Source: a virus. From it: a DNA stretch of 64,000 bases. The stretch covers positions 62,001 to 126,000 of IMG/VR virus record IMGVR_UViG_3300023223_001361, one strand, 5' to 3'. This document shows, one piece after another, positions 5,001-47,290 of this stretch. The notes beneath the pieces were generated by a model. It worked only from the letters and a program-made list of their open reading frames with translations, searched no databases and was not told the DNA's origin. Position numbers and translations under genes: made by a program. The stretch's first letter is position 1. Each line of letters opens with the position of its first letter.

Positions 5001-5008
5001 TATAAATA
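5001..5008 (+). promoter_or_regulatory. T4-type late promoter box
   Basis: Perfect TATAAATA, the late-promoter consensus of T4-like phages. The expected transcription start is at about 5014, on the annotated ATG of the next gene. This would give a nearly leaderless mRNA unless translation starts at the ATG at 5053. Confidence 0.5.
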
Positions 5009-5013
5009 AGAAG

Positions 5014-6075
5014 ATGACATTGTATGTTGTCGATTGTTATTGTTTAAAAGAAATGGCAGATATTTCAGGTACAAGGACATCAGGCTTACCAGCCTGGGAT
5101 TATTACATAAAAAATAATCCTGATTGGAAAAAATTGGAACTACGGATAGAAAATAAGAAATCTACTTATATTTTCCAAATTAAAAATAAAGGGTTAATTC
5201 CAGGTAAAAAGCTCTATAAAGCAAAAACAAAACTTCAGCTCTTGGATAATAAAATCAAAAAAGTTGGAAGAATTTCAATGGCTAACGTTCAAATTGGGGA
5301 TGAAAAAGGTTTTATCTCCATTGCTACAATTCGTAAACCCTCTAAAGCTGGAGAAAGAGGAACTACATTTGATGAAAAAGTGGCTTTCAAAGATTTAAAA
5401 AAGCTTATTAAGAAATTTAAGACTCCTATGGTACCTATAAGTCTTGGTGTTAAGAAAGAAGGAAAAGTAATGTTTACCATTCATGATGCTATAGATGTCC
5501 AGACATTCAAGGGAAATCCGAAAGCTGATTTTGCTATTGTATCTAAAAGTAATAAAATGCCTTTATTCATTTCCCATAAAAAAGCTGGTGGTCCTAAAGC
5601 ATTTCAACAATTTTCAGGTGTAAGCTTGAAAGCTGGATTAAGAATTTCAGAGCATAAAGAAGTAAAGAGTTTTTTGAGGAAGTTAGTAAGTTTTATGGAT
5701 ATTGAAAAAAAGAGGTTAATAAAACCTGTATTTTCAATAATTAAAGATCCGAAGCTGAAAAATTTAGCTGTATTTGGATCGGAATATAAAAAAGGTTCCA
5801 AGGATTTTAGTGAAGAATATGTTCAGATCATTGGTCAGGGGAATCCGATTTTGACTTCAGGTAAGAAAAAGTCTTCTTTTACCTTAGAATGGTCGGAACA
5901 TTTTGCACCTGCCGGGGAAATAAAATCATTTAAGGGAGATTTAGAGATTGTTTTTCTTGCTACTTTTAGAGCAGGCAGAAAATTTCATATAGATGGGAAA
6001 ACATATACTGGAGCAAGAATAATGATTGCTCCATTGGCTCTCGCGAAAGGAAGATCTGATTTGACTGAGATATAA
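5014..6075 (+). CDS. putative PD-(D/E)XK-type nuclease
   Basis: 353 residues. Around residue 170 the segment KADFAIV, 14 residues later FISHKKAGGPKAFQQF, has the spacing and hydrophobic pattern of a restriction-endonuclease-fold active site (Asp on one strand, Ser/Glu-x-Lys on the next). This is weak motif evidence only. The rest is rich in beta strands and Lys. The first ATG lies only 5 bases after a late-promoter box; the second in-frame ATG (5053, MADISGTRTSG) may be the true start. It opens the cassette of tagged enzymes and ends one base before the next ATG. Alternative: a DNA-binding structural protein. Confidence 0.6.
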   Translation: MTLYVVDCYCLKEMADISGTRTSGLPAWDYYIKNNPDWKKLELRIENKKSTYIFQIKNKGLIPGKKLYKAKTKLQLLDNKIKKVGRISMANVQIGDEKGFISIATIRKPSKAGERGTTFDEKVAFKDLKKLIKKFKTPMVPISLGVKKEGKVMFTIHDAIDVQTFKGNPKADFAIVSKSNKMPLFISHKKAGGPKAFQQFSGVSLKAGLRISEHKEVKSFLRKLVSFMDIEKKRLIKPVFSIIKDPKLKNLAVFGSEYKKGSKDFSEEYVQIIGQGNPILTSGKKKSSFTLEWSEHFAPAGEIKSFKGDLEIVFLATFRAGRKFHIDGKTYTGARIMIAPLALAKGRSDLTEI

Positions 6076-6076
6076 A

Positions 6077-7243
6077 ATGAAAAGTTTTAAAATATTTTTT
6101 ACGGAAGTAAAAAAGAATACACATTTAGAGCATATCGAAGATTGGATATTGAATGACGGTGCCGTTGGTGGACGTGATGCTATTTTGATTCTCCAAGATA
6201 TTGTTGATGATATAGCTTCTGGAGAGAAATCTACTCAAATTACGGTAAAATGGGATGGTAGTCCAGCTATAATTTGTGGAACAGATCCCGAAACAAAAAA
6301 CTTTTTTGTTGGAACGAAATCTGTTTTTTCGAAGAAAAAACCAAAACTCAATTTCACTTCGGAAGATGTGAGAAGGAACTATTCCAATGAAAATCTACAA
6401 GAAATTTTAATATTATCTTTAGAGAATTTAAAAGACTTAAATATCAAAGGTGTGTTACAAGGGGATTTGATGTTCACAAAAGATATGTTAAGAACAACAA
6501 AAGTACATGGAGAAGAACTCCTTACTTTTAAACCAAATACGATAACTTATGGTGTGGCAACAAATCTCCCATTAGCAGTTCAAATGAAAGAAGCACAAAT
6601 AGGAATAATTTTCCATACAGCATATAGTGGTTCTGGTACTCTTTGTGATTTAAAAGCGAATTTTGAACCAAAAGTTTCTTCCCTCAAAAAAGTTCCAAAT
6701 GTTTGGTTCGATGATGCATCAATAACAAATATTGATAAGTCTTTGTTTTCTCTAGAAGAAAGAAAAAATATTCAATCAATATTGAGAAAAGCGGAAAATC
6801 AATTAGCATCTGCTTCTAAGTTTGCTAATGAGTTATCTATTAATGGTGGAATTCTGAATCACATTAAAAGATTTATAAATGAAAGAATTAGATCGGGGAA
6901 GTTAACAGAAACAAAAGATATTCCAGAAATAATTGATTTTATTGAAAATCAGTTTCGTTCTGAACTTGGAAAAATTAAGGCTACGACTTTTCTTAAAAAT
7001 GAACAAGAAGGTTTTGCAGCATTGATTGAATATCAAACAAGCATAATTCAAGCAAAATTAGAAATATTAAATAAGTTAAATGGTCTAGCAAACATTAATT
7101 CATTTAATGAAATATCATCAGGAGATTTACAAGTTACTCCACCAGAAGGTTTTGTTTCTATTTCATCTAAGTTGGGTAAAGTCGTTAAATTAGTTAATCG
7201 ATTGGAATTCAGTTTCAGAAATTTTTCAAAGGCTGAAGGATAA
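6077..7243 (+). CDS. tagged ligase-like nucleotidyltransferase (DUF6267-like)
   Basis: 388 residues. The N-terminus MKSFKIFFTE resembles the T4 capsid-targeting tag (MKTYQEFIAE in the T4 internal proteins). The body carries KWDGS at 58-62, like motif I (KxDG, the AMP-linked Lys) of ATP-dependent ligases and mRNA-capping enzymes, then VLQGDLMF at 126-133 like motif III, then FKPNTITYGV at 151-160. The C-terminal half is helical. I recall similar T4-like phage proteins under DUF6267. Predicted action: covalent nucleotidyl transfer, substrate unknown. It may be packaged in the head. The ligase motif V Lys is not obvious. Confidence 0.7.
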   Translation: MKSFKIFFTEVKKNTHLEHIEDWILNDGAVGGRDAILILQDIVDDIASGEKSTQITVKWDGSPAIICGTDPETKNFFVGTKSVFSKKKPKLNFTSEDVRRNYSNENLQEILILSLENLKDLNIKGVLQGDLMFTKDMLRTTKVHGEELLTFKPNTITYGVATNLPLAVQMKEAQIGIIFHTAYSGSGTLCDLKANFEPKVSSLKKVPNVWFDDASITNIDKSLFSLEERKNIQSILRKAENQLASASKFANELSINGGILNHIKRFINERIRSGKLTETKDIPEIIDFIENQFRSELGKIKATTFLKNEQEGFAALIEYQTSIIQAKLEILNKLNGLANINSFNEISSGDLQVTPPEGFVSISSKLGKVVKLVNRLEFSFRNFSKAEG

Positions 7244-7247
7244 TATA

Positions 7248-8108
7248 ATGAAATTCAAACAGCTAATAAAAGAAGGTGGAAATGCTGTTTCTAATACTTC
7301 TCGAATTAATAAAATAAATGTCAACCCTACTTTGGAATCTTTGTATCGAATTCTTTTGCCAAAAATGAATTTGACAAAGAAAGCTATTAGTATTTTAGGA
7401 ACCACTGGCAAAAGGAAAACTTCTGGAGATATTGATATAGCTGTAGATACTCAAGCTTTGATGAAAGGAAGTAAAATAAGTAATATAGATGATTTGTATG
7501 ATGTAATGGTTTCCGCTTCAAAATCTGTTAGTAAAGAAGTAAAAGATACAAGAAGTTTAGGAACTATTTCTTTTTCTTTTCCAATCACAAATACAGATGG
7601 AAAACAAGCTGGTAAGTTGGTACAAATAGATTTGTTTCTTGTTAGTAATTTATCTTGGGCTAATTGGATATACTTTGGACCAAGAGAAGAAGAGAGTAAG
7701 ATAAAGGGATTTTATAGGAATATTCTTCTTGGTCAAGTCGCTAAACATGTTTCTCTTAAGATTAGAAAAAAAGAAAATGGGGAAAATATAGAACAAGAAA
7801 GATTTTTGTTTATATTTTCTCAAGGATTAATGAAAGCGATTCAAAGTCGTAGAGGCAAAAAGAAGCTTTTGAAGAATTTTAAAAGCATAAACAGAGAATT
7901 AATATCAACGAATCCAAATAAAATTGTAAAACTGTTATTTGGTCCAAAAGCCAAACCAGACAATTTGTTAACATTCGAACAAATGTTTGCGGCTGTACAA
8001 TCGAATGGTTTTCCGAAGAAATCAAAACGAAATGTTATTTTTTCCGAAACCAAAAAAGTTTTACTAAAGTTGAATGTGCCTATTCCTAATGAATTGGAGC
8101 CATTCTAA
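7248..8108 (+). CDS. tagged pol-beta-superfamily nucleotidyltransferase 1
   Basis: 286 residues starting MKFKQLIKEG, a shortened form of the tag with an IKE|G end. A pol-beta nucleotidyltransferase signature follows: GTTGKRKTSGDIDIAV at residues 51-66 with metal ligands Asp61 and Asp63, and a third Asp at 128 in VQIDLFLV. Members transfer NMP to RNA, protein or small molecules. Four bases separate it from the preceding gene. A second, divergent nucleotidyltransferase follows at once. Confidence 0.75.
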   Translation: MKFKQLIKEGGNAVSNTSRINKINVNPTLESLYRILLPKMNLTKKAISILGTTGKRKTSGDIDIAVDTQALMKGSKISNIDDLYDVMVSASKSVSKEVKDTRSLGTISFSFPITNTDGKQAGKLVQIDLFLVSNLSWANWIYFGPREEESKIKGFYRNILLGQVAKHVSLKIRKKENGENIEQERFLFIFSQGLMKAIQSRRGKKKLLKNFKSINRELISTNPNKIVKLLFGPKAKPDNLLTFEQMFAAVQSNGFPKKSKRNVIFSETKKVLLKLNVPIPNELEPF

Positions 8109-9019
8109 TGAAGAGTTTTAAATTTTTTATGAAAGAATCTCTTATTGATCCTGTCCAGGACACCCTTTCGAAACAGATATTCGACAAGACAGATACTCCG
8201 AATCCCATAATGAAAAAGCGCGTTAAGGGTTTCATTATGCGTGGTATTGGAGATTTAGAAGATATCGCAAGAATACTTGATATTCAGATAGTAGGAAGTA
8301 TTCTCACTCGACAGTTTGCACTCAATGCCGATATAGATGTCAATATTTTATTTAAACCATTTGGTGATGCACAAACTGTGCTCAAAAGACTTAGAAAAAG
8401 AGCTGCTAAGATTAATGGTGCGAAAGTTACAGGAACCAAACATTCAGTGAATTATTTTAGTGTAGTGAGCCAAGAGGTTTTTGATAGAGCTAGTGAATTA
8501 ACCGATGCTGCTTATGATTTAAATACAGATAAATGGCTCAAGAAAGCGAAAGCTCAACCATTTGATCCAGATAAGTATATTGAGGAGTTTGATAAAGCTG
8601 CGTCTAAGCTTGATATTATGAAAGATGAACTAGTCAGAGACATTGCAGACTTTAAGCAATTACAGTCTTTAAAACCAATTGAATTATCCAAGCTTTCCCA
8701 AAAAGTTAACGGAAAAGTTCAAGAACTCGAAAAAGATATGAAAGACATCATCGACACTCATCAATTAGCAAAACAAGTTAGAAGAGATATTTTCTCTAAA
8801 CCCCTTTCACCAAAAGAAATAAAAGATTATGGCAGTAAGAACGCATTACCAGAGAATGTAATCTTTAAACTATTAGAGAGATTTTTATATTGGAATTTAG
8901 CATCCAAGCTAAAAGAAATAATTGGAGATGATAAGAAATTATCGAAGCCGGAAGCGAAGAAATTGAAGAACGTAAAGGTGCCGCCAGATGCGAAAGGAAG
9001 ACTTAAAAGCTCACGTTAA
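8108..9019 (+). CDS. tagged pol-beta-superfamily nucleotidyltransferase 2
   Basis: 303 residues with tag MKSFKFFMKE. GSILTRQFALNADIDVNI at 63-80 gives the GS...DxD nucleotidyltransferase signature (Asp75, Asp77). A long charged helical region occupies 170-250. The start overlaps the previous stop by one base. It ends inside the next open frame, which is offset by +1, so a frameshift or indel joining the two should be considered. Confidence 0.72.
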   Translation: MKSFKFFMKESLIDPVQDTLSKQIFDKTDTPNPIMKKRVKGFIMRGIGDLEDIARILDIQIVGSILTRQFALNADIDVNILFKPFGDAQTVLKRLRKRAAKINGAKVTGTKHSVNYFSVVSQEVFDRASELTDAAYDLNTDKWLKKAKAQPFDPDKYIEEFDKAASKLDIMKDELVRDIADFKQLQSLKPIELSKLSQKVNGKVQELEKDMKDIIDTHQLAKQVRRDIFSKPLSPKEIKDYGSKNALPENVIFKLLERFLYWNLASKLKEIIGDDKKLSKPEAKKLKNVKVPPDAKGRLKSSR

Positions 9020-9671
9020 GAGTAGTTATACAGTAACTTGGAAAGGTGATAGATTTGATTATTCTTATCCAGATGATAAAGGTAAATCTGTGCCTTGGTT
9101 TGCTGTGATCGAAGATGATAAGATTACATTTGGTAAAGGCACTGGGGATGAAATAGTCTACGAAATTGGAGACCTAGATATACTCGATAAAAGACTGAAA
9201 AATCATGATGTGCCAAAGAAGAAAAAGTTGGAATCATTTAAGAAATTTGTCGCAACAGAAGAAACGCTTGATAGTTTTGCTGCTAAAGCTTGGAAAGCTG
9301 GTGATCCCAAGCTGAAAAAAGATATTCAAAAGATTCTTTCGGAAAAGGAAGGGTATAAAGTAACAACTTCTATCTCTACTTTGGGCGGTGCTGATAGACC
9401 TTCTTTTAGTGTTAGTTATTGGAATATTAATGATGCTAAAGGAAATATTAAACAAAATTCAACAGCCCATACTATTTTGATTATGCACACTGATAAAAAT
9501 AACAAAGTCTGGAAGTGGGAGATGGCTACTGCCCACTTCAAACAAAAACAGAATGGTATTAAATTCCGTGCCCTTCGATCAACCAAGTCAATGGATGATG
9601 CTAATGCCAAACTGCTTGCATGGATTAAGAAAAATAAGCCTGATTTAGATGCTTTAAGGGATGGAAAATAA
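8988..9671 (+). CDS. hypothetical protein with an internal tag-like segment
   Basis: 227 residues, ATG at 8988 with AAAGGTG upstream. Residues 1-78 look like a compact beta domain, then LESFKKFVATE (about residues 81-91) closely matches the N-terminal tags of neighbouring proteins. A TTG at 9228 would start a protein as M-ESFKKFVATE. So this may be two fused modules separated by a protease site, or the real gene may start at 9228. The C-terminal part is a small mixed alpha/beta domain of unknown function. Confidence 0.6.
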   Translation: MRKEDLKAHVKSSYTVTWKGDRFDYSYPDDKGKSVPWFAVIEDDKITFGKGTGDEIVYEIGDLDILDKRLKNHDVPKKKKLESFKKFVATEETLDSFAAKAWKAGDPKLKKDIQKILSEKEGYKVTTSISTLGGADRPSFSVSYWNINDAKGNIKQNSTAHTILIMHTDKNNKVWKWEMATAHFKQKQNGIKFRALRSTKSMDDANAKLLAWIKKNKPDLDALRDGK

Positions 9672-10246
9672 TGAAATCTTTTAAGTATTTTGTGGAAAAA
9701 GTAATAGGAACTGGAAGTAAATCATTAGGTGTTGAGCGGGATGATATGCCCCAAATAAAAGATCCTGAAAAATTTGTTTCCTTCTTAAAAAGAAATGGTT
9801 TAAAGGTTTCTGAAGATCATATAAAGGCAAGTGATATTAAATTTACCCAAAAACACTTAAAGACAGAAAAAATAGATGATATCTTAAAACAGAAAGGAGA
9901 AATTAATTGTTCTGATTTTCTTGTTTCTTCAGATAATCATATATTGGATGGGCATCATAGATTAGCAGCTCAAAAGAGAAAAGATGAAAATAGGGTAATA
10001 TGTGTTCAGAAGGTAAATGCAAAAATGCCTGTTGTTTTAAAATTTGCAAATGACTTTTCTGGAGCAAAATTTGTTGGTGTTGATGAAGTCATCGATTTAA
10101 AGAAAGGTTCTGAACAGGATGCAATTAAGAGAGCTATTGATGATTTCAAAGATAGTGATGCTCCACAGTTCAAAGGTAAGAGTAAAGAGAAACGCATACA
10201 AATGGCAGTAGCCGCAGTTAAAGCAGTAAGAAGAAGAAATGGCTAG
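9671..10246 (+). CDS. tagged ParB/sulfiredoxin-like protein
   Basis: 191 residues with tag MKSFKYFVEK. The central segment ILDGHHRLAAQKR (residues 91-103, DGHHR at 93-97) matches the ParB/Srx fold, which binds nucleotides and in some members acts as a nuclease or CTPase. The C-terminus is basic (VKAVRRRNG). The start shares one base with the previous stop. It is an enzyme or DNA-binding factor in the tagged cassette; CTPase versus nuclease cannot be decided. Confidence 0.72.
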   Translation: MKSFKYFVEKVIGTGSKSLGVERDDMPQIKDPEKFVSFLKRNGLKVSEDHIKASDIKFTQKHLKTEKIDDILKQKGEINCSDFLVSSDNHILDGHHRLAAQKRKDENRVICVQKVNAKMPVVLKFANDFSGAKFVGVDEVIDLKKGSEQDAIKRAIDDFKDSDAPQFKGKSKEKRIQMAVAAVKAVRRRNG

Positions 10247-11255
10247 AAAAACTTTTCAAGATTTATTGGTAGAGCAGCAAGGTAAAACTGTTGTATTTGC
10301 ATTTGGTAGATTTAATCCACCAACAATAGGTCATGAAAAATTGTTGGATAAGGTAGTTCAGCTTGCTCAGCGAAATAGAGCTGAAGCTAGAATTTATCCT
10401 AGTTTATCTCAAGATAACAAAAAAAATCCATTATCTGTTAAAGATAGGGTTAAGTTCCTAAAAATGATGACTAAATTTCCTAAGATGATAGTCAATAATA
10501 AAGTATTGAAAACACCTGGAGCTGCTTTAGAAGCTCTTGCACAAGAGGGGTTTGAAACTGTTGTTATAGTAGTTGGTGGGGATAGAGTAAAAGATCTAAA
10601 TAGATCTTTAGGTCCATTTTCAGAAAAGTTAGGTATTAAAAACTTTCAAGTTATTAGTGCTGGGATAAGAGATTTAGATGTCGAAGGAGCTACAGGTATG
10701 AGTTCTTCAAAGATGAGAGCTGCTGCATCTGATGGTAATTTCACTTTATTCGAAAAAGGTATCTCTAAAAAGATTAATGTGAAGTTTAAGAAGCAAATAT
10801 TTCAAAAGGTGAGAAAAAGTTTAGGTTTAAAAAAGATTAATGAAGAAATTCAAAGACCAAATATAGTAAAACTGAATGAAGTTGATTTTTGTTACTTTAA
10901 TAAAGAAACGACTTTTAAATTTACTGACTCTTTGGGTTTTACTGTTTCAAACATGAAAATTTCTGAAGTGAAATTATGTGATCCAAATATAGATTATGAG
11001 AAAGCATCAAAAATAGCTCAAACAGCTAATAGAGCATGGCTTGGTAATATATTTCATATTAGCGAAGATAATTTTCTTTATGGAGATTTGGAAAGATTTG
11101 TTGCTTTATTAAGCAGAGATCCTAAAGCAATCATCAGAGTTAGAAGAATCAAAGGAACTATTCAAGAGATTTTTCAAAGTGCTAATAATTATTCAAACGA
11201 GGTATCAAGTAAATTAAACTGTCAATTTGAAGAGGTTATTAATGAAAACATTTAA
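10239..11255 (+). CDS. tagged NMNAT/cytidylyltransferase-like protein
   Basis: 338 residues starting MARKTFQDLLVEQ, a tag variant ending LVE. Then AFGRFNPPTIGH (21-32) is the HxGH-type nucleotide-binding motif of adenylyl/cytidylyltransferases, and GMSSSKMR (151-158) corresponds to the ISSTxxR motif. The N-terminal about 200 residues form the catalytic domain; residues 205-338 are an extra domain of unknown role. Likely reaction: NMP transfer from NTP to a phosphorylated small molecule, possibly NMN. NAD metabolism is plausible but unproven. It overlaps the previous gene by 8 bases. Confidence 0.78.
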   Translation: MARKTFQDLLVEQQGKTVVFAFGRFNPPTIGHEKLLDKVVQLAQRNRAEARIYPSLSQDNKKNPLSVKDRVKFLKMMTKFPKMIVNNKVLKTPGAALEALAQEGFETVVIVVGGDRVKDLNRSLGPFSEKLGIKNFQVISAGIRDLDVEGATGMSSSKMRAAASDGNFTLFEKGISKKINVKFKKQIFQKVRKSLGLKKINEEIQRPNIVKLNEVDFCYFNKETTFKFTDSLGFTVSNMKISEVKLCDPNIDYEKASKIAQTANRAWLGNIFHISEDNFLYGDLERFVALLSRDPKAIIRVRRIKGTIQEIFQSANNYSNEVSSKLNCQFEEVINENI

Positions 11256-11448
11256 GACTTTCGCTGAAGGCGAAAACACAGATCGAGTAAAAATCAAACA
11301 AGATAAAGAAAAAGGAGCTTTACAACGTCGTCAAGATGATGAAAAAGATAAAGCATCACAGGATGACTTTGATGTTGATCAAGCGAAAAAACAAAGAGAA
11401 AGAGAACAAAAGAAAAGAGAAAGTGATAGAGAAAAAGCTCTTAAATAG
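11242..11448 (+). CDS. small tagged charged protein
   Basis: 68 residues from ATG 11242, chosen because GAAGAGG lies 6 bases upstream; a TTG 15 bases earlier is possible. It begins MKTFKTFAEGEN, a good tag with FAE|G, and the rest is an extremely charged Lys/Glu/Asp/Gln helix. This composition is like that of T4 internal-head or core peptides. It overlaps the end of the adenylyltransferase gene. Confidence 0.65.
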   Translation: MKTFKTFAEGENTDRVKIKQDKEKGALQRRQDDEKDKASQDDFDVDQAKKQREREQKKRESDREKALK

Positions 11449-11555
11449 TAATTTTGGAGCCAGTATTTAGGCAAGAGTCAAAATTTGCTTGAAAAAGTGA
11501 ATTTTTTGATAGTCTTAAAGTTTTTTTGGACATTTGAGTTTTGAGGATATAAATA
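11449..11555 (+). other. 107-bp intergenic gap
   Basis: T-rich stretch between the tagged cassette and the FmdB-like gene. A TATAAATA string touches the next ATG (11548-11555), too close to act as that gene's late promoter. No terminator hairpin seen. Confidence 0.5.
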
Positions 11556-11750
11556 ATGCCTTTTTATGAATATAGACGCAAAGATGGAACAATTTTTGAG
11601 ATAGAACAGAAGATAACAGATGACAAATTAACTGTGTGCCCAGAGACAGGTCAGAAATGTAGAAAGGTTATTTCAAAAACCGGTGCTCCTATATTTAACA
11701 AGGGATGTGGTGGCTTTTATTCTTGCGATTATAAAAAGAAAGGCAAATAA
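11556..11750 (+). CDS. FmdB-like zinc-ribbon protein with altered first knuckle
   Basis: 64 residues with the FmdB-family start MPFYEYRRKDGT. In the family the segment after YEY normally carries the first CxxC, which is absent here. The distal part keeps Cys residues (CPETGQKC) and the usual ISKTGAP stretch, ending with GCGGFYSCDYKKK. So it is an FmdB relative that may bind zinc differently or not at all. SD TTGAGG precedes the ATG. Role unknown; FmdB proteins are called regulators on slim evidence. Confidence 0.72.
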   Translation: MPFYEYRRKDGTIFEIEQKITDDKLTVCPETGQKCRKVISKTGAPIFNKGCGGFYSCDYKKKGK

Positions 11751-12512
11751 ATGTGTTTAATTGCTGTTAAATATATTCCTGAGCAACAATCATGGGTTGG
11801 TGTCAAGAACAGAGATAGAGTTGCAAAGCCGGTAATACGAATTCGCAAAAGCTTTCGACGTGGTATGGAACGACTATATATGTGGGATGATAAGACAAAA
11901 TACACTGAAGGTATTAATGAATTTGGTGTTGCTATTTTGTCTGCTGGTATGGATTCAGAAAGAGATACAATTGATGGGCTTGCTATAAGAACAGCATTAT
12001 TTGAACAGACCGTAGAAGGTGCTGTTCAGAAAATTGTAGATTTAAAAGTAAGAGGAAGAACATTTGTTTTCTCAAAAGATATAGCATGGCAAGTTGGAAT
12101 AGAAAAAGGTAATGGTAAAGATTTTATGATTGCAGATGTAGAAATGAGTAGACAAGAACATCATGTTTTTATTTCAGTTGATGATGCTTTTCAAGAGCAC
12201 AAAAGATGGCGCACTGCAATGAAAGAAACACAATTGGCTAGAAGTGCAATGGAATTATTTGATGGTATGTCATCTACAGATGATGAGAATCCACAAGATA
12301 ATCCATTAATTGTTACCGATAAAAGAAAAGCAATGAAAACTACGGGTCAAGTTATGATTCTGCCTTCAGAGATGACTATGCATTATAGAGCTATGTGGGG
12401 TGATGTTCGTTTCAGCTTAGACAAATTAAATTCCCCGATTGAGAAAACATTTTTTGAAATTGTGTCGACTAGAAAATTAATAAGTTTCGGAGAAGAAAGT
12501 GCAAACTCTTAA
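11751..12512 (+). CDS. Ntn-hydrolase-like protein (NRDE/C45 type)
   Basis: 253 residues starting MCLIAVKY, with a G-x-K/x-NRD element (GVKNRDR) near residue 20. Cys at position 2 followed by a conserved NRD is typical of N-terminal-nucleophile amidohydrolases; Cys2 would become the nucleophile after Met removal. Known relatives cleave amide bonds in small molecules, but the substrate here is unknown. It starts right after the zinc-ribbon stop. Its 3' end overlaps the next tagged gene. Confidence 0.7.
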   Translation: MCLIAVKYIPEQQSWVGVKNRDRVAKPVIRIRKSFRRGMERLYMWDDKTKYTEGINEFGVAILSAGMDSERDTIDGLAIRTALFEQTVEGAVQKIVDLKVRGRTFVFSKDIAWQVGIEKGNGKDFMIADVEMSRQEHHVFISVDDAFQEHKRWRTAMKETQLARSAMELFDGMSSTDDENPQDNPLIVTDKRKAMKTTGQVMILPSEMTMHYRAMWGDVRFSLDKLNSPIEKTFFEIVSTRKLISFGEESANS

Positions 12513-12696
12513 ATATTTTTTGCGAGAAGCAAAAAACAAATCACAAGCTTTGAAAACACTTCAAGATAAAAAGAGCGATGCTCTTGCTAAATTGGGGGCT
12601 ATAGATACTCTGAAATCTCTCAAAGTATCAGATGGTGAAATAAATAGGGCCTTGAGAAAGGCTGGGATTAAAAACGCAGACGAGCTATTGAAATAG
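12499..12696 (+). CDS. small tagged helical protein
   Basis: 65 residues, GTG start preceded by CGGAGAAG. The start MQTLKYFLREAKN matches the tag with LRE|A, the best fit in the window to the L/I-x-E cleavage rule of T4 gp21. The rest is a helical domain with a KVSDGEINRALRKAGI end that looks like a small HTH or SAP-like fold. Likely an internal virion peptide. Confidence 0.65.
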   Translation: MQTLKYFLREAKNKSQALKTLQDKKSDALAKLGAIDTLKSLKVSDGEINRALRKAGIKNADELLK

Positions 12697-26768: not shown

Positions 26769-27407
26769 CTATGGTTTAATGTAAAAGAATTGAATTTTAC
26801 CTGATGATGCTGAATCATCAAAAGTAGTTGTAAGACGAATAACGGTACCTGTAAGAAAATAAAATCTATTTGTTGAAAAGTTCCACTGTGCTGCTGCTGC
26901 TGTGTCGGCTGCTATAACTTTCATCTCATATGCATCAGTTTCTATAAGTCCAGCAACGCCATGAGCTGTGTCCACATTACCATTGTTTGGAAAGGATGCA
27001 ATATTAAATTGTTTACAGAATATGGTTTCTCCAGCATCAGTTACTTCATAGGGCCATATTTGTTCTGATGTAGACCATTGGAAAGCAGTGCTGCTAGAGG
27101 TAGTAACACCAAAGACATAATCGACTACAATAACTGAGCCTCCTGTAGGAGCAACAATAAAAGTTATAGTATCCCCAGAAACGCTATAATCTGTAGTTCG
27201 TTCTTGTTCAACCCCATCTAACGTGACTTCTTCTGTATCAGTATTAGGTGTATTAGTAAGAGTAAAGGTTACATTGACCCCATTGATAGTTCCAGAAGGA
27301 AGCTCCCCACGTATAAATCCAGAAAGAGTAATTTTTTCATCTAATTGATCTTGAAGTGGGTCAGTAACGCCACTAATTTGAGATGAACGAACTTTAGTTT
27401 CAGCCAT
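26769..27407 (-). CDS. virion/fibre-type structural protein
   Basis: 212 residues. Residues 33-100 contain a module (LPSGTINGVNVTFTLTNTPN, then TITFIVAPTGGSVIVVDYVF) that recurs in the protein at 57035. The remainder is Thr/Ala/Ser-rich beta. This composition is typical of tail-fibre or decoration proteins. It is preceded on its strand by TATAAATA at 27439-27446, so late expression is expected although the surrounding genes face the other way. Confidence 0.72.
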   Translation of the reverse strand: MAETKVRSSQISGVTDPLQDQLDEKITLSGFIRGELPSGTINGVNVTFTLTNTPNTDTEEVTLDGVEQERTTDYSVSGDTITFIVAPTGGSVIVVDYVFGVTTSSSTAFQWSTSEQIWPYEVTDAGETIFCKQFNIASFPNNGNVDTAHGVAGLIETDAYEMKVIAADTAAAAQWNFSTNRFYFLTGTVIRLTTTFDDSASSGKIQFFYIKP

Positions 27408-27438
27408 ATAATTTATAATCCAATTGAATATCTACTTG

Positions 27439-27446
27439 TATTTATA
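27439..27446 (-). promoter_or_regulatory. T4-type late promoter box
   Basis: TATAAATA on the reverse strand, 32 bases upstream of the ATG at 27407; predicted start near 27433. Placement ahead of a virion-type gene supports the call. Confidence 0.65.
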
Positions 27447-27607
27447 ATCTTGGAAAATGTGCCGACCCTTTATAGGCTGTAATCGGTAGAAATATTGAAG
27501 ATAAAGGCAATAATTGGTAAAGTCTCCTATTTCTAATAAATGCGTTTTTCGACGTTTATCGCGGTGTTGTTCGTTGTGTATACTTGGTATCTGGAGGATT
27601 GATCGTA

Positions 27608-27670
27608 CTCTTTGATGCCTACACTTTGCTCTTTGATGCCTACACTTTACTCTTTGATGCCTACACTGTG
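27608..27670 (+). repeat. 21-bp direct repeat, three copies
   Basis: Units 27608-27628, 27629-27649 and 27650-27670, each CTCTTTGATGCCTACACTTT plus one base; the third copy has one additional change. Perfectly tandem, in multiples of three. Could be an iteron-like binding array or a recent duplication. Confidence 0.9.
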
Positions 27671-27720
27671 CCAGCTAAGCGTGCGACGGAAGGCGGCTCC
27701 AATTTTTTCCCGCAGGATTC

Positions 27721-27736
27721 GAACGAGTATTCGTTT
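27721..27736. repeat. GAATATTC-type palindrome, copy 1 (degenerate)
   Basis: GAACGAGTATTCGTTT, one mismatch inside and one at the end relative to the ideal palindrome GAACGAATATTCGTTC. Confidence 0.6.
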
Positions 27737-27765
27737 CATTACTTGGACTGTCCAGGTTGCAACAT

Positions 27766-27778
27766 CGAATATTCGTTC
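27766..27778. repeat. GAATATTC-type palindrome, copy 2
   Basis: CGAATATTCGTTC, matching the right 13 bases of the ideal 16-bp palindrome; the left three are CAT. Confidence 0.65.
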
Positions 27779-27920
27779 TATAGGCTCCAGAAATTACTTG
27801 ACAAAACTCCCAAACTATGATTCCAAAATACATGAGAAAAACTTAGCATGCCCTTTGCATTAGCAATTTTCGTACCAACTATATATTTGGAATGAATCTT
27901 GCAATTGCAAGAACTGTTCA

Positions 27921-27936
27921 GAACGAATATTCATTC
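27921..27936. repeat. GAATATTC-type palindrome, copy 3
   Basis: GAACGAATATTCATTC, one mismatch to the ideal palindrome, 22 bases upstream of the ATG at 27958, an operator-like position. Confidence 0.7.
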
Positions 27937-27957
27937 CACCTAAAGGCACAAAATATT

Positions 27958-28182
27958 ATGAATGTCAAGTTTGATCCAAAAATGTTGAAAGGACATTATG
28001 ATCCGAATGACAAAATTCTTCGGATCCTTAGAGATTCGGAACTCACAGATGATGAAATAGAATTACTCTTAGCTGCTTACTTTCTAGCCTTTTCTACTAC
28101 ATATCCAAAGAAGTACAAAAAACTGGCACGCGAATGTGCCAAGAAGTCAATGAAAACTTTGTTGCCAGGTGTCATAAAATGA
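27958..28182 (+). CDS. hypothetical helical protein
   Basis: 74 residues from ATG 27958 (AAGG upstream); a longer frame from 27892 would run through the palindrome and is less likely. DDEIELLLAAYFLAFSTT helix and a basic tail. Converges with the reverse gene at 28199. Unknown. Confidence 0.55.
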   Translation: MNVKFDPKMLKGHYDPNDKILRILRDSELTDDEIELLLAAYFLAFSTTYPKKYKKLARECAKKSMKTLLPGVIK

Positions 28183-28198
28183 TTGGAGAAATTTTAGA

Positions 28199-28471
28199 TT
28201 AGATAAGATTTTCAAATTCTTTTATGATTTCCTCAAACTTCGAAAAGTCGTATATATCACGAAACTTATACCTGCCTCTATATCCACTATTACGCATTGA
28301 TTGCGAACGAGCTTTATAGCGTTTCATATCAGAGATGATGCCCTGGATATCTTCTTTGTTAAGTTTGTCTATATATTGTAACCATTCATCAAGGGCAAGC
28401 CCAGTTATACAGAACGCTTCACCATATAGCTTCTTAATATTATCCATTTCTTTTTGTTCCGTGTCATTCAT
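28199..28471 (-). CDS. small hypothetical protein
   Basis: 90 residues, helical, starts MNDTEQKEMDNIKKLYGEAF with GGAG upstream on the reverse strand, one base after the stop of the membrane protein gene upstream. Second gene of a reverse two-gene operon. Unknown. Confidence 0.65.
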   Translation of the reverse strand: MNDTEQKEMDNIKKLYGEAFCITGLALDEWLQYIDKLNKEDIQGIISDMKRYKARSQSMRNSGYRGRYKFRDIYDFSKFEEIIKEFENLI

Positions 28472-28472
28472 T

Positions 28473-28685
28473 TTAACGATCTCCAGAGCCTTTCAAATAA
28501 TCCTCAAGCGATGAATCAGAATCAAAAAACTTTTTTGAATCAAGAAAACCTTCCATATACCGAAAACGTCCATGTTCTTCAATCTTTGTTTTTCTTCCGA
28601 ATTCATCGAATGGATAAAAACCAAAAAACAACATACCCAGTATGCCACAAATAACTGCTAGTGAAGAGAGTATTCCAAATAACAT
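28473..28685 (-). CDS. small membrane protein
   Basis: 70 residues with one N-terminal transmembrane helix (LFGILSSLAVICGILGMLFF) and a charged C-terminal tail. AAAGGAG precedes ATG 28685. First gene of the reverse operon, preceded by the CTAAAG-type promoter at 28723-28752. Confidence 0.7.
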   Translation of the reverse strand: MLFGILSSLAVICGILGMLFFGFYPFDEFGRKTKIEEHGRFRYMEGFLDSKKFFDSDSSLEDYLKGSGDR

Positions 28686-28722
28686 ATTGATTCTCCTTTA
28701 ATATCTTAATACATACAATTAC

Positions 28723-28752
28723 TATATCGTCAGAAACCCTATATAACTTTAG
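28723..28752 (-). promoter_or_regulatory. CTAAAG/GATA phage promoter motif, reverse copy
   Basis: On the reverse strand CTAAAG, 18 bp, GATATA, with GACGATA as in the forward copies at 35.7-37.5 kb. Lies 38 bases before the ATG at 28685 and just after the terminator at 28765. Confidence 0.6.
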
Positions 28753-28764
28753 AATTCTAGGCAC

Positions 28765-28793
28765 AAAAAAAGACTGCTCCAGAACGGAGCAGC
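28765..28793 (-). terminator. intrinsic terminator of small RNA 2
   Basis: Reverse strand: GCTGCTCC, GTTCT loop, GGAGCAGT (8-bp stem with one G-U) followed by CTTTTTTT. Confidence 0.82.
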
Positions 28794-28861
28794 CTAGAAG
28801 GAGGTTCACGACAAACATAGGATAAATCATAATGAAGGATTCTATATATTTCCTTCTTATA
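28765..28861 (-). ncRNA. candidate small RNA 2
   Basis: A reverse-strand unit of about 97 nt from the predicted start near 28861 to the U-run. It contains no gene with a ribosome site. A 5' AGAAGG can pair with CCTTCT just before the terminator hairpin, enclosing an unpaired middle. Promoter and terminator both lie within this short span, which argues for a transcript that acts as RNA. Confidence 0.6.
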
Positions 28862-28867
28862 CTTTAT

Positions 28868-28896
28868 ATTCTATCAGTCTTCATACTCTTTGTCAA
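28868..28896 (-). promoter_or_regulatory. sigma70 promoter for small RNA 2
   Basis: Reverse strand TTGACA (28896-28891), 17 bp, TAGAAT (28873-28868). Confidence 0.78.
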
Positions 28897-28941
28897 GACA
28901 TTTTTCGTTTCTATGCCTCCATAATCATTAAAGATTTTAAG

Positions 28942-28980
28942 AAAAAAAGCCTCGTCGTGACTGTACACACAACGAGGCTT
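28942..28980 (-). terminator. intrinsic terminator of small RNA 1
   Basis: Reverse strand AAGCCTCGT...ACGAGGCTT, a 9-bp perfect stem followed by a run of T. One of the clearest terminators in the window. Confidence 0.88.
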
Positions 28981-29050
28981 CCTAAGAGACTTGCTTAACG
29001 GATCGTCTTACCGCACACGGTTTGCCAAACCGTGCGGCGTTCAAGTCTTT
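28942..29050 (-). ncRNA. candidate small RNA 1
   Basis: Reverse-strand unit of about 109 nt from the predicted start near 29050 to the U-run at 28942-28948. It has an upstream hairpin (29011-29037; 8-bp core ACGGTTTG/CAAACCGT extended by CCGC/GCGG), a single-stranded linker of about 30 nt, and a terminator hairpin. No ribosome site or gene. Architecture is that of a trans-acting bacterial sRNA, but I recognise no family. Confidence 0.65.
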
Positions 29051-29056
29051 AGACTC

Positions 29057-29085
29057 ATTCTATCAATATTTGTTCCATCTGTCAA
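29057..29085 (-). promoter_or_regulatory. sigma70 promoter for small RNA 1
   Basis: Reverse strand TTGACA (29085-29080), 17 bp, TAGAAT (29062-29057); same -10 hexamer as the promoter of small RNA 2. Confidence 0.82.
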
Positions 29086-29152
29086 CTCTTTTCTCAACTA
29101 TAGCGATTTTTTGTTACGTTATGCAACTTTGGTACCATAGGTGTCATCAGAA

Positions 29153-29208
29153 CGAATATTCAGTCATTAATTTAATGACTGAATATTCGTCGAATATTCA
29201 GTCATTAA
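29153..29208. repeat. triple alternating inverted repeat
   Basis: An 18-bp element CGAATATTCAGTCATTAA occurs at 29153-29170 (forward), 29172-29189 (inverted) and 29191-29208 (forward), separated by single T residues. Each neighbouring pair is a perfect palindrome (37 bp in total). The array lies between the reverse promoter at 29057 and the forward promoter at 29305, a position expected of a shared operator. Related degenerate sites lie at 27721-27936 and 29220-29235. Confidence 0.9.
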
Positions 29209-29286
29209 TGAAAGCACTAGAACGATCATTCGATCTGTGAAATTTTTAGAGATTTTTGGCGAAGTTGGCTCTTTTCTGGGGAATTT

Positions 29287-29333
29287 AGAATTGTCGAATT
29301 CTCCTTGACAAGGTGTCGCCTGCATGAGATAAT
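29287..29333 (+). promoter_or_regulatory. sigma70 promoter with adjacent inverted repeat
   Basis: TTGACA at 29305-29310, 17 bp, GATAAT at 29328-29333. Immediately upstream AGAATT-GTCG-AATTCT (29287-29302) is a small inverted repeat that could bind a regulator. Same ATGAGATAAT -10 context as the promoter at 38299. Confidence 0.8.
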
Positions 29334-29355
29334 ATAAGAGTAGGAGATATATGAC

Positions 29356-29514
29356 ATGAAAACGAAAAATCCAAAAACCCCAATGCAGTGTCTAGAGTGT
29401 AATAAGAAGTTTAATAAGGTTATCACGGATCGCACGTATGAAGTTCGATGCCCACGTTGTAAAGGGTACGATACTGAGGTTGCTTGTAATCTCTTATCAT
29501 ATGAGGGTAAATAA
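29356..29514 (+). CDS. small zinc-ribbon protein
   Basis: 52 residues with CLEC and CPRC knuckles around a beta hairpin. Clear paralogue of the protein at 35781 (shared CxEC-x-x-KF, then TYE-x-x-CP-x-CK-x-YD). SD TAGGAGAT. First gene after the promoter at 29305. Possibly a transcription or translation modulator. Confidence 0.7.
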   Translation: MKTKNPKTPMQCLECNKKFNKVITDRTYEVRCPRCKGYDTEVACNLLSYEGK

Positions 29515-29516
29515 CG

Positions 29517-29756
29517 ATGAAAAAAGAAATTAAAGAATTCAAATATCAACATCCTGCTTCTTTTAGTGGACACACGATCCGATTAATCCAGAATGGTAAC
29601 AGATACTTAGTAGCACATTATCTGCCCGGCGGTGAGGATCTTTATCCTCATGGATATAGATACAGCAATCTAGCTGCCGCTGAAGCTCAGATAGAAGATA
29701 TTGAAGCTCACTTAATCGAGCAAGGTTATGAGGTGTCAGCACGATACTATTTCTAA
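29517..29756 (+). CDS. small hypothetical protein
   Basis: 79 residues: beta-hairpin start (HTIRLIQNGNRYLVAHY) then an acidic helix. Two bases after the zinc-ribbon gene. Unknown. Confidence 0.6.
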   Translation: MKKEIKEFKYQHPASFSGHTIRLIQNGNRYLVAHYLPGGEDLYPHGYRYSNLAAAEAQIEDIEAHLIEQGYEVSARYYF

Positions 29757-29772
29757 CAGAGGAATTAGCTTA

Positions 29773-29838
29773 ATGAATGAGAAGCAAAAGCTCGAAAAGC
29801 ACAGTGATGTATTATATAGATTAAAGATAAGGAGATAA
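29773..29838 (+). CDS. possible 21-residue peptide
   Basis: ATG with AGAGGAA upstream; encodes a basic peptide whose stop abuts the next gene. May instead be a leader whose translation feeds the next start. Confidence 0.35.
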   Translation: MNEKQKLEKHSDVLYRLKIRR

Positions 29839-29839
29839 T

Positions 29840-30145
29840 ATGACACCAAATTTTTGGAATGACTTTAATCAGTTTCTTGTTGCTGCTCAAGAAGTGATCG
29901 ATGAGTATTGGATTATGTCAAAATTCGATCCTGAGAGGAAACCGGATCTTGATTGGTCTGAAGGGAAGCGGTATGTCAAGGTATTTCGAGAAGGTTCGGT
30001 TCATTGTTTCGTGGATAAGACTAATGGAAATATCCTTAAAGCTGCCAGTTGGAAAGCTCCAGCGAAACATGCTAGAGGCAATATAGGAGATCCAGATAAC
30101 GGTCAGTCTGCTATGGGCCCGCATGGTGCTAATTATTTGAGGTAA
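29840..30145 (+). CDS. conserved small phage protein
   Basis: 101 residues. The segment RYVKVFREGSVHCFVDK and TNGNILKAASWKAPAKHARG is a pattern I recognise from many phages; function unknown. The WKAPA element recurs at the end of the gene at 35929. SD AAGGAGAT. Confidence 0.75.
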   Translation: MTPNFWNDFNQFLVAAQEVIDEYWIMSKFDPERKPDLDWSEGKRYVKVFREGSVHCFVDKTNGNILKAASWKAPAKHARGNIGDPDNGQSAMGPHGANYLR

Positions 30146-30155
30146 TACAAAAGTT

Positions 30156-30317
30156 ATGACCCAGATATCAATAATCGATGACATATATTTGGAAGGATAT
30201 ACTGCCTATGTTGCAGGCTTAGATATTCATGATAATCCTTATAACAGTGGTGATGAACTTAGTTCATGGGATGATGGATGGTATCAAGCAAGACAAGATA
30301 TATTAGATGAGATGTAA
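30156..30317 (+). CDS. RMF-like small protein
   Basis: 53 residues. GYTAYVAG..NPY.......SWDDGWYQAR follows the pattern of ribosome-modulation-factor-like domains found in phages (G-x-x-A-x-x-x-G, NPY, W-x-x-GW). Might bind ribosomes or be structural only; function inferred weakly. Confidence 0.6.
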   Translation: MTQISIIDDIYLEGYTAYVAGLDIHDNPYNSGDELSSWDDGWYQARQDILDEM

Positions 30318-30519
30318 AATCTGCAAAGGAGAAGATTGCGAAGCAATCGAGTGTGAAGTTTGTCAAAAGCTATATTGTGTATGGCAGCTTAATGATCTCG
30401 GTTCTAAAGACTGTTGCGATGATTGCACGGAGATATGTTATTCTTGTGGTGGTTGTGGGATCGAATATGAAGAGACTTGTTTCACATGTGCCGGCCGCGG
30501 TAAAGTAGCTATAGAATAA
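30307..30519 (+). CDS. Cys-rich DnaJ-type zinc-finger protein
   Basis: 70 residues with many Cys in CxxC pairs, including CYSCGGCG and CFTCAGRG like the DnaJ CxxCxGxG repeats. Overlaps the previous gene by 11 bases. Probably binds two or more zinc ions; possible chaperone-like or nucleic-acid contact role. Confidence 0.65.
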   Translation: MRCKICKGEDCEAIECEVCQKLYCVWQLNDLGSKDCCDDCTEICYSCGGCGIEYEETCFTCAGRGKVAIE

Positions 30520-33510: not shown

Positions 33511-33744
33511 ATGAGTAAAACATTAGAACAATTTTTAATGACAGATTTCATGAGATCTAATAAATCTGAAACATTGAAAGAACAATTCTCCCCTAGAGAG
33601 AAAATTTTTATAAGTAAAGCTCTCAGTCTTTTAAAAACTGCTCAAGCAGAAATTGACAAACTTGTTGCTAGACAACATGCAGAAGCAAAACCAATAGCAA
33701 GTAAATTGTCTGAATTATCTAAGGAAATTCAAAAGCTCAAATAA
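33511..33744 (+). CDS. helical hypothetical protein
   Basis: 77 residues, start MSKTLEQFLMTDFM with AGAGGAAAA upstream; N-terminus related to the gene at 32942. Stop overlaps the next ATG. Unknown. Confidence 0.6.
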   Translation: MSKTLEQFLMTDFMRSNKSETLKEQFSPREKIFISKALSLLKTAQAEIDKLVARQHAEAKPIASKLSELSKEIQKLK

Positions 33745-46615: not shown

Positions 46616-47290
46616 ATGAAAAAGTTCCAAGAATTCATTTCCTTAGATGAAGGTGTTAATGATCCAGGTATATTCAAAGCAATATTTCTTGCTGGTGGAC
46701 CTGGATCTGGTAAATCCTTTGTAACATCTAAGGCGTTGCCAAATGCTGCTTTAGGTTTGAGAATCATTAACTCTGACCAAGCTTTAGAATTCCTTTTAAA
46801 GAAAACCGGCTTATCTAGCGATATGCTCAAGATGACGCCTAATGAATTAGAAAAATTTTCAGAAACAAGAAGAAAAGCAAAGATATTAGTTGCGAAACAA
46901 AGATCAAATCTTATTCGAGGGAGAATTGGTTTAATCCTTGATGGTACTGGTAGAGATTTTAAAAGAATCCAGGCTGAAAGAGATGACTTAAAAGGTTGGG
47001 GATATGATACGTTTATGGTTTTCGTAAACACTTCTCTTGATGTGGCTTTAGAAAGAAACAGACAAAGAGCAAGAAAGGTTGATGAAAAGGTTGTGAGGAA
47101 ATCTTGGCAAGATGTTCAGAAAAATCTTGGTCAGTTTCAAAATTTGTTTGGTCAAAGAAATTTCATTATTGTTGATAATAACAATGTAGATGAGGATGTC
47201 TTAAATAAGACATTTAAACAAGCTCGTAAATTTGTAAAACGCCCGGTAGATAATCCATTTGCAAAAAAGTGGATTGCATCACAAAAATAA
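46616..47290 (+). CDS. tagged P-loop kinase (zeta-toxin/PNK-like)
   Basis: 224 residues. Start MKKFQEFISLDEGVN matches the capsid-targeting tag with LDE|G. Walker A AGGPGSGKS at 26-34, an INSD segment after it, LILDGTGRD near 115 and R-rich lid (ERNRQRARK) near 145. This order fits zeta-toxin or polynucleotide-kinase-type P-loop kinases. Substrate unknown (nucleic acid end, or UDP-sugar as in zeta). Separated from the main tagged cassette by 35 kb. Confidence 0.78.
   Translation: MKKFQEFISLDEGVNDPGIFKAIFLAGGPGSGKSFVTSKALPNAALGLRIINSDQALEFLLKKTGLSSDMLKMTPNELEKFSETRRKAKILVAKQRSNLIRGRIGLILDGTGRDFKRIQAERDDLKGWGYDTFMVFVNTSLDVALERNRQRARKVDEKVVRKSWQDVQKNLGQFQNLFGQRNFIIVDNNNVDEDVLNKTFKQARKFVKRPVDNPFAKKWIASQK

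Follow-up and report, generated by a model that had tools for sequence, protein, structure and literature searches.

Putative capsid-targeting leaders on an enzyme cassette of a distant T4-like phage

Results

A cassette of proteins with a shared N-terminus

Here, we analysed a 64,000-nucleotide stretch of viral DNA (hereafter, the window), bases 62001-126000 of the 160,399-base virus record IMGVR_UViG_3300023223_001361, with the focus on a cassette of genes whose products share a short N-terminal tag. A leader of the type of the capsid-targeting sequence (CTS) of the internal proteins of phage T4 is found at seven gene starts of one 6.6-kb late operon and, further downstream, at that of a kinase gene at 46616; the protein bodies behind it are unrelated, as an earlier note on this DNA had claimed. 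The features are listed below, with the basis of each assignment in parentheses (pLDDT, predicted local distance difference test).

5001..5008, +: late promoter TATAAATA of the T4 type, heading the cassette operon (sequence)
5014..6075, +: first gene of the operon, phrog_13937, untagged in the window (profile and sequence)
6077..6106, +: CTS-like tag MKSFKIFFTE (pattern; residues 1-14 with pLDDT < 50)
6077..7243, +: DUF6267/phrog_455, putative divergent ligase-like nucleotidyltransferase (Pfam, 4.5e-93)
7248..7274, +: CTS-like tag MKFKQLIKE (pattern)
7248..8108, +: putative nucleotidyltransferase, SGDIDIAVD motif by eye (sequence; no family match)
8108..8137, +: CTS-like tag MKSFKFFMKE (pattern)
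8108..9019, +: putative nucleotidyltransferase, GS..NADIDVNI motif (weak NTP_transf_2 match, 0.12)
8988..9671, +: untagged cassette gene with the internal tag-like stretch LESFKKFVATEE at TTG 9228 (sequence)
9671..9697, +: CTS-like tag MKSFKYFVE, E at position 9 (pattern)
9671..10246, +: ParB/Srx-like, ILDGHHRLAA motif (profile phrog_2859, 2.9e-21, and eye)
10239..10274, +: CTS-like tag MARKTFQDLLVE (sequence)
10239..11255, +: NMNAT/cytidylyltransferase-like, orthologue of T4-GC190 (PF01467, 1e-9; phrog_3041, 1.7e-45)
11242..11268, +: CTS-like tag MKTFKTFAE (pattern)
11242..11448, +: small charged tagged protein, 68 amino acids (no family match)
12499..12528, +: CTS-like tag MQTLKYFLRE (pattern)
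12499..12696, +: small tagged protein, 65 amino acids (sequence)
46616..46651, +: CTS-like tag MKKFQEFISLDE, E at position 12 (pattern)
46616..47290, +: zeta/polynucleotide-kinase-like P-loop kinase (AAA_33, 1.2e-10)

The N-termini at 6077, 7248, 8108, 9671 (MKSFKYFVEK), 12499 (from a GTG start codon) and 46616 read as the earlier note had given them, as does that at 11242, which starts at an ATG within an open reading frame (ORF) listed from TTG 11227. The protein at 10239 does have the tag, but it begins only at residue 4, and the protein at 33744 (MKTFQEATK), also named as a bearer, does not match, the FxxE half being absent. Three genes inside the cassette interval (8988, 11556 and 11751) lack an N-terminal tag. 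A start at the internal TTG 9228 of ORF 8988 would read MESFKKFVATEE, so that this codon could be a second start or indicate a misplaced gene start. For the gene at 5014, an ATG at about 5053 is the probable true start; the tag is present in a relative (MDSFKTFLSEAK, locus L096).

Mutagenesis of T4 internal protein IPIII assigned residues 4 and 7 to targeting and residues 8 and 10 to processing (reviewed in PMC9026906), and the positions conserved in the window tags are these same four. Aromatic or large hydrophobic residues occupy positions 4 and 7 directly in 6077, 8108, 9671, 11242, 12499 and 46616, and the same layout recurs with one residue fewer in 7248 and with two more in 10239. The leader ends in a strict I/L-x-E in 7248, 10239, 12499 and 46616, and in F-x-E or M-x-E in 6077, 8108, 9671 and 11242. 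The T4 leader with which these N-termini had originally been compared, MKTYQEFIAE, is correct for IPII and IPIII, but IPI starts with MKTFKEFTSTTTPVSTITE.

The leader exceeds chance expectation and is specific in T4

The key pattern used for searching was built only from the positions established by mutagenesis in T4 (4, 7, 8 and 10). When N-terminal residues were shuffled within each of the 239 ORFs of the 160-kb contig (2000 shuffles), this pattern was found 4 times in the contig versus 0.36 after shuffling (p 0.0015), a strict T4 pattern twice versus 0.01, and a relaxed tag pattern 9 times versus a mean of 0.96 (maximum of 6 in 2000). A wider pattern was dropped as too loose, since the UvsX start MSDFLKDIIKET also matched it.

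For calibration, both strands of the whole T4 genome were scanned with the key pattern, taking each ATG or GTG in ORFs of at least 35 codons as a possible start. It matched IPII, IPIII, gp61.1, one spurious alternative-frame ORF and nothing else, so few that the pattern can be considered specific; IPI is missed because its cleavage site sits further in. The gp61.1 protein (NC_000866 18966-19130, locus L112), 54 amino acids long and annotated as hypothetical, starts with MKTFKEFIKEDMVAGDSG, a perfect CTS-like leader, and its gene lies between those for gp41 and gp61, the very interval that holds the cassette in relatives. We therefore predict, from its sequence, that gp61.1 is an unrecognised internal head protein.

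The cassette and its leaders in related phages

Gene order in the window runs uvsX (1990), gp41 (3592), 5014, DUF6267 (6077) and onwards; a gp61-like primase does not follow until 43339. Sequence and position served to identify uvsX, gp41 and this primase. Genes for DUF6267 and the cytidylyltransferase likewise follow shortly after gp41 in Pelagibacter phage HTVC008M, Methylophilales phage Melnitz and cyanophages S-PM2, S-CAM9, S-SM1 and S-SZBM1, and are close neighbours in phage C48C1; in HTVC008M, a homologue of the kinase at 46616 is located within the cassette block. A nucleotide search of the cassette in phages gave no match. Among the DUF6267 proteins, leaders are found in C48C1 (MLDFKNFITEQKNTHMTHIED), Melnitz (MINFSKYITED...LHLEHIED) and Stenotrophomonas phage DLP6 (MKFTQFLAES). 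Their presence in some phages and absence in others indicates that the leader is a separable module.

The earlier note had proposed searching T4-like genomes for the tag upstream of unrelated domains. A profile search added 80 IMG/VR loci, for a total of 81 loci with 1215 called genes, in which the key pattern occurs 71 times versus 1.5 in shuffles preserving N-terminal composition, and the strict T4 pattern 13 times versus 0.0. The tags fall on 24 clusters (clustering with a coverage rule). Visual inspection condenses these to about 15-20 unrelated families, among them DUF6267 (38/78), cytidylyltransferases, HAD-like proteins, zeta-like and adenylate kinases and a number of unknown ones; no tag was found on the replication genes gp41 (0/44) and UvsX (0/23) of these loci. 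Locus L085 encodes a clear adenylate kinase (PF00406, 5e-43) behind a near-identical leader (MKSFKYFIEA), and the homologous protein of L093 fits the key pattern (MKSFKDYIFE). The survey logo reads M-K-[ST]-F-K-[QE]-[YF]-[LI]-T-E, mostly followed by A, S or D, with L or I at position 8 in most tags, and its end, [FY][LI]TE then A/S/D, resembles the cleavage site of the major capsid protein gp23.

A subgroup of DUF6267 proteins (L054, L056, L062, L063, L078, L080 and L085) starts with MFSFKGF[IFV]TK, which keeps the targeting residues and has lost the cleavage E, suggesting that these proteins may be packaged without processing. In Caulobacter phage Cr30 (L108:10335-10655), a small protein with the leader MKTFKQFFNES shows a weak PARP/KptA/ART-like match, recalling T4 Alt. 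In Agrobacterium phage Atu_ph07 (L105:2208-7608), 4 proteins encoded side by side have starts of the MRWEQL/MKWNDL type and, by eye, ART-like YRGM motifs; one of them is fused to a zeta-type kinase related to that at 46616.

Tagged proteins in virions of relatives

The tag patterns were fixed before we examined the published proteome of cyanophage S-CREM2 (genome OR473000; Table 3 of PMC10665884). The key pattern is matched by 5/28 detected proteins outside the named structural list versus 1/165 undetected ones (Fisher p 2.5e-4). The tagged detected proteins are a SAM hydrolase (SAM lyase; MKDFDSFLEE; PF23780, 2.3e-19), ORF13 (MKDLHSFLTE), an APH-like kinase (MKRFDAFLTE), ORF136 (MQTFSMFFSE) and the cytidylyltransferase (MKNFSSFLTE).

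The cytidylyltransferase has also been reported in virions of S-SM1 (PMC3037559), S-SCSM1 (PMC9602691) and S-SZBM1 (PMC9146016), where its tags are MKKFSAFLNE, MKSFLQFLKE and MRFRQFIIE, respectively. Thus, this virion-reported enzyme is tagged in 4/4 phages; its homologue in jumbo phage SP27 is untagged, so that the tag is not intrinsic to cytidylyltransferases. The neighbouring DUF6267 protein of S-SZBM1 is untagged and absent from the table of detected proteins of that phage (PMC9146016). The kinase of S-CRM01, cited as virion-detected in PMC10665884, starts with the tag MISFDQFLSE.

S-CREM2 ORF12 (L017:7704-10313, - strand), a virion-detected protein labelled 'Cas9-like', has a tag-like LRFASFMAEA at residues 17-26, an arrangement also seen in S-CRM01 gp128 and in an S-N03 protein. 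The motif (LRFASFMAE, residues 17-25) is internal, and ORF12 was therefore left out of the tag count; the 'Cas9' label is unsupported by Pfam, and by eye there is an HNH-like stretch.

Partner genes and the late promoter

T4-type head genes, among them those of the partners of the tag (gp21, gp22 and gp23), are present elsewhere on the contig, outside the window (contig coordinates):

24386-25987: portal gp20 (PHROG profile)
26808-27464: prohead protease gp21 (phrog_207, 8e-75)
27537-28907: scaffold gp22 (phrog_237, 1.5e-67)
28948-30324: major capsid protein gp23 (phrog_138, 9e-146)

The gp23 of this phage contains a cleavage-type site, GTLTE|APANQ, the contexts being FLTE|AE in T4, TLTE|AP here and LLTE|AP in S-CREM2. 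The T4 late promoter core at the operon head occurs in 9 copies on the contig, 7 of them at most 80 nucleotides upstream of a + strand gene (binomial p 4.5e-6), and in related loci precedes 34/181 cassette genes versus 24/883 others (p 1.5e-13). Judging from these promoters, the cassette is predicted to be expressed late, along with the head genes.

The putative cargo proteins

The labels NMNAT/cytidylyltransferase-like (10239) and P-loop kinase (46616), in the earlier note NMNAT-like and kinase, are well supported by profile matches, with 39.2 bits against PF01467 (Pfam cut-off 21) in the case of 10239. For 6077, the match to DUF6267 (PF19782) scores 313 bits against a gathering cut-off of 27. 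In an alignment of 46 DUF6267 sequences, K58-x-D60-G61, E357-G358 and K371 are invariant; this KxDG motif, the E-G pair and the downstream K recall covalent nucleotidyltransferases (ligases and capping enzymes). A fold search places DNA/RNA ligases on top, but without significance (best E 0.18), so that the label ligase-like, although plausible from the KxDG motif, remains a suggestion; the matches of the DUF6267 profile in a PDB sequence search were all weak and apparently due to chance, most of them being to coiled coils. AlphaFold models residues 1-14 of the 6077 protein as disordered, with the fold beginning after them.

The labels of the two putative nucleotidyltransferases (7248 and 8108) and of the ParB-like protein (9671) are motif-based. 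The 7248 protein has no profile match to Polbeta-type nucleotidyltransferases, and a single-sequence search found no relatives of it. A homologue of 8108 is part of a 999-residue fusion adjoining a tagged DUF6267 protein. The protein of locus L035, in which NTP_transf_2 (7e-4) is fused to CTP_transf_like behind a tag-like leader outside the key pattern (MKSFSEFKES), ties together functions encoded apart in the window (7248/8108 and 10239).

Seven further window proteins (23936, 24474, 25313, 25675, 26160, 30688 and 42908) start with variants of a different sequence, MIDELIKKAREKGYI, and have differing bodies. Such starts are possibly another address tag or a repeat family.

Discussion

Our analysis indicates that the N-terminus shared by the cassette proteins is, with high probability, a T4-type CTS, i.e., a portable leader whose bearers would be packaged into the head. 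This reading, first put forward in the earlier note, finds support in the key positions, the portability of the leader, the partner genes, the late promoter and, in relatives, the enrichment of tagged proteins in virions. We propose that the operon from 5014 to 12696 would be transcribed late from a gp55-type late promoter and that its enzymes bear a cleavable address of about 10 residues, M-K-[ST]-[FY]-x-x-[FY]-[LI]-x-E. The tagged enzymes would bind the gp22 prohead core via the aromatic residues 4 and 7 and thus be enclosed in the head, where the gp21 protease would cut after the (hydrophobic)-x-E site; the freed enzymes would then remain with the DNA and enter the next host alongside it. 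For this phage, packaging, cleavage and injection, as well as the purpose of the enzymes, are what we infer: because tagged enzymes of relatives are found in purified virions, this virus probably injects a ready-made kit with its DNA, comprising a ligase-like protein, two putative nucleotidyltransferases, a ParB-like protein, the NMNAT/cytidylyltransferase and the kinase. T4 IPI and IPIII are active against host defences (PMC9391042), and by this analogy the kit most likely acts in the first minutes of infection, in counter-defence, nucleic-acid or end repair, or NAD supply.

Several observations weigh against this reading. The window tags themselves deviate from the T4 rule, with F or M at P3 in 6077 and 8108 and the E at position 9 in 9671 and 11242 or at position 12 in 46616, so that processing may be partial or the protease of this phage looser. 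Several cyanophage DUF6267 proteins have no tag and start with MAKNTHLEHLED, and some DUF6267 homologues have K in place of E10. Most of the virion-detected non-structural proteins listed for S-CREM2 are untagged; hence, the tag is not the sole route into the virion. Furthermore, the authors of that report warn that abundant proteins might co-purify with CsCl-purified virions (PMC10665884). The virion evidence itself comes from relatives of this phage.

Of the alternative explanations, the one that fares best, although it is unlikely, is that the leader, though a true CTS, brings in cargo for head morphogenesis, a scaffold filler of the kind suggested for T4 IPIII, rather than an injected arsenal. 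Indeed, T4 IPIII mutants show head assembly defects (PMC9026906), and some of the tagged proteins combine small size with high charge (11242, 12499 and S-CREM2 ORF13). However, conserved motifs make many of the bodies recognisable as enzymes (cytidylyltransferase, adenylate kinase, SAM lyase, protein kinase and P-loop kinase), the cargo varies greatly among phages, and T4 IPIII without its CTS acts in the host cytoplasm (PMC9391042). Considerably less probable is a role in docking elsewhere than on the prohead core, for instance on a tail part or on the machinery of late transcription or of replication, with recovery from virions being incidental. Although short amphipathic N-terminal peptides can be generic docking motifs, the conserved positions are those that direct targeting and processing in T4 (PMC9026906), the terminal [LI]-x-E is a prohead protease site in agreement with that of gp23, virion proteins are enriched in tagged ones, and the tag is never found on replication genes. 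Finally, functionless N-termini that arose by chance, from an AT-rich bias at start codons or by common descent can be practically discounted: AT-rich codons do encode K, S and F, and such genomes commonly have MK-rich starts, but this explanation is already contradicted by the survey shuffles, by the unrelated bodies, by the proteome of S-CREM2, a phage of much higher GC content (47.9%) with the same tag on virion proteins, and by T4, where no more than 3 matches coincide with gene starts and two of these belong to known CTS proteins.

The T4 CTS is textbook knowledge; the capsid targeting sequence of the T4 internal proteins was reportedly described by Mullaney and Black in 1996. The cassette resembles IPI, IPII, IPIII and Alt of T4 in tag position, the key residues 4, 7, 8 and 10, a putative (hydrophobic)-x-E site for gp21, the gp22, gp21 and gp23 partners, predicted late expression and varied bodies behind a common leader, which in type is also that of gp61.1. 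By contrast, the T4 cargo consists of small basic proteins and an ADP-ribosyltransferase, whereas here a syntenic operon of nucleotide-handling enzymes lies downstream of gp41, in a distant T4-like phage for which, unlike T4, no CTS has been described. Co-packaged and injected proteins with propeptides cut by the prohead protease are also known from P1 (Dar) and from phiKZ-like phages and SPN3US (ejection proteins), but their literature descriptions set them apart by other leader sequences and other capsid families.

The T4-like cyanophages with virion enzymes (S-SM1, with T4-GC190, S-CREM2, S-SCSM1, S-SZBM1 and S-CRM01) share with the cassette the orthologous cytidylyltransferase and the genomic block, and the detected enzymes named above carry the tag. 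The available portions of the respective reports describe no targeting sequence, and that on S-CREM2 is undecided between enzymes inside the virion and co-purification (PMC10665884). The novelty that the earlier note claimed for a co-packaged enzymatic arsenal is too strong a claim given the T4 CTS, a 2022 review that already suggests the CTS to be a general means of loading diverse proteins (PMC9026906), and the cytidylyltransferases, kinases and SAM hydrolase already reported in cyanophage virions (PMC3037559, PMC10665884, PMC9602691, PMC9146016). We found no description of a CTS-type tag in marine or cyanobacterial T4-like phages in the open-access literature searched. Within this literature, two things appear to be new, namely that the system extends to a conserved operon of enzymes in distant T4-like phages and that the tag is linked to enzymes whose presence in cyanophage virions was already on record.

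More broadly, we lean, by a modest degree, towards the view that, throughout the T4 superfamily, the CTS serves as a universal and portable address for cargo. T4-like phages of marine and fresh waters would maintain a dedicated late operon between gp41 and gp61, and through it enzymes of dozens of unrelated families would be loaded (RNA/DNA-ligase-like, nucleotidyltransferase, NMNAT, adenylate kinase, polynucleotide-type kinase, protein kinase, SAM lyase, HNH nuclease and ADP-ribosyltransferase), active in the host before phage transcription; the tag alone would suffice to list injected effectors from genomes, and gp61.1 of T4 would be an internal head protein that has been overlooked and a trace of this operon. 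The predictions are that gp61.1 is an internal head protein and that DUF6267 occurs in virions only where it is tagged. The unexplained list of enzymes in cyanophage virions would thus become a predicted delivery system with a readable address, and the T4-calibrated sequence rule offers a means of searching T4-like phages, which are very abundant, for proteins co-injected with the DNA; these are prime candidates for first-response counter-defence.

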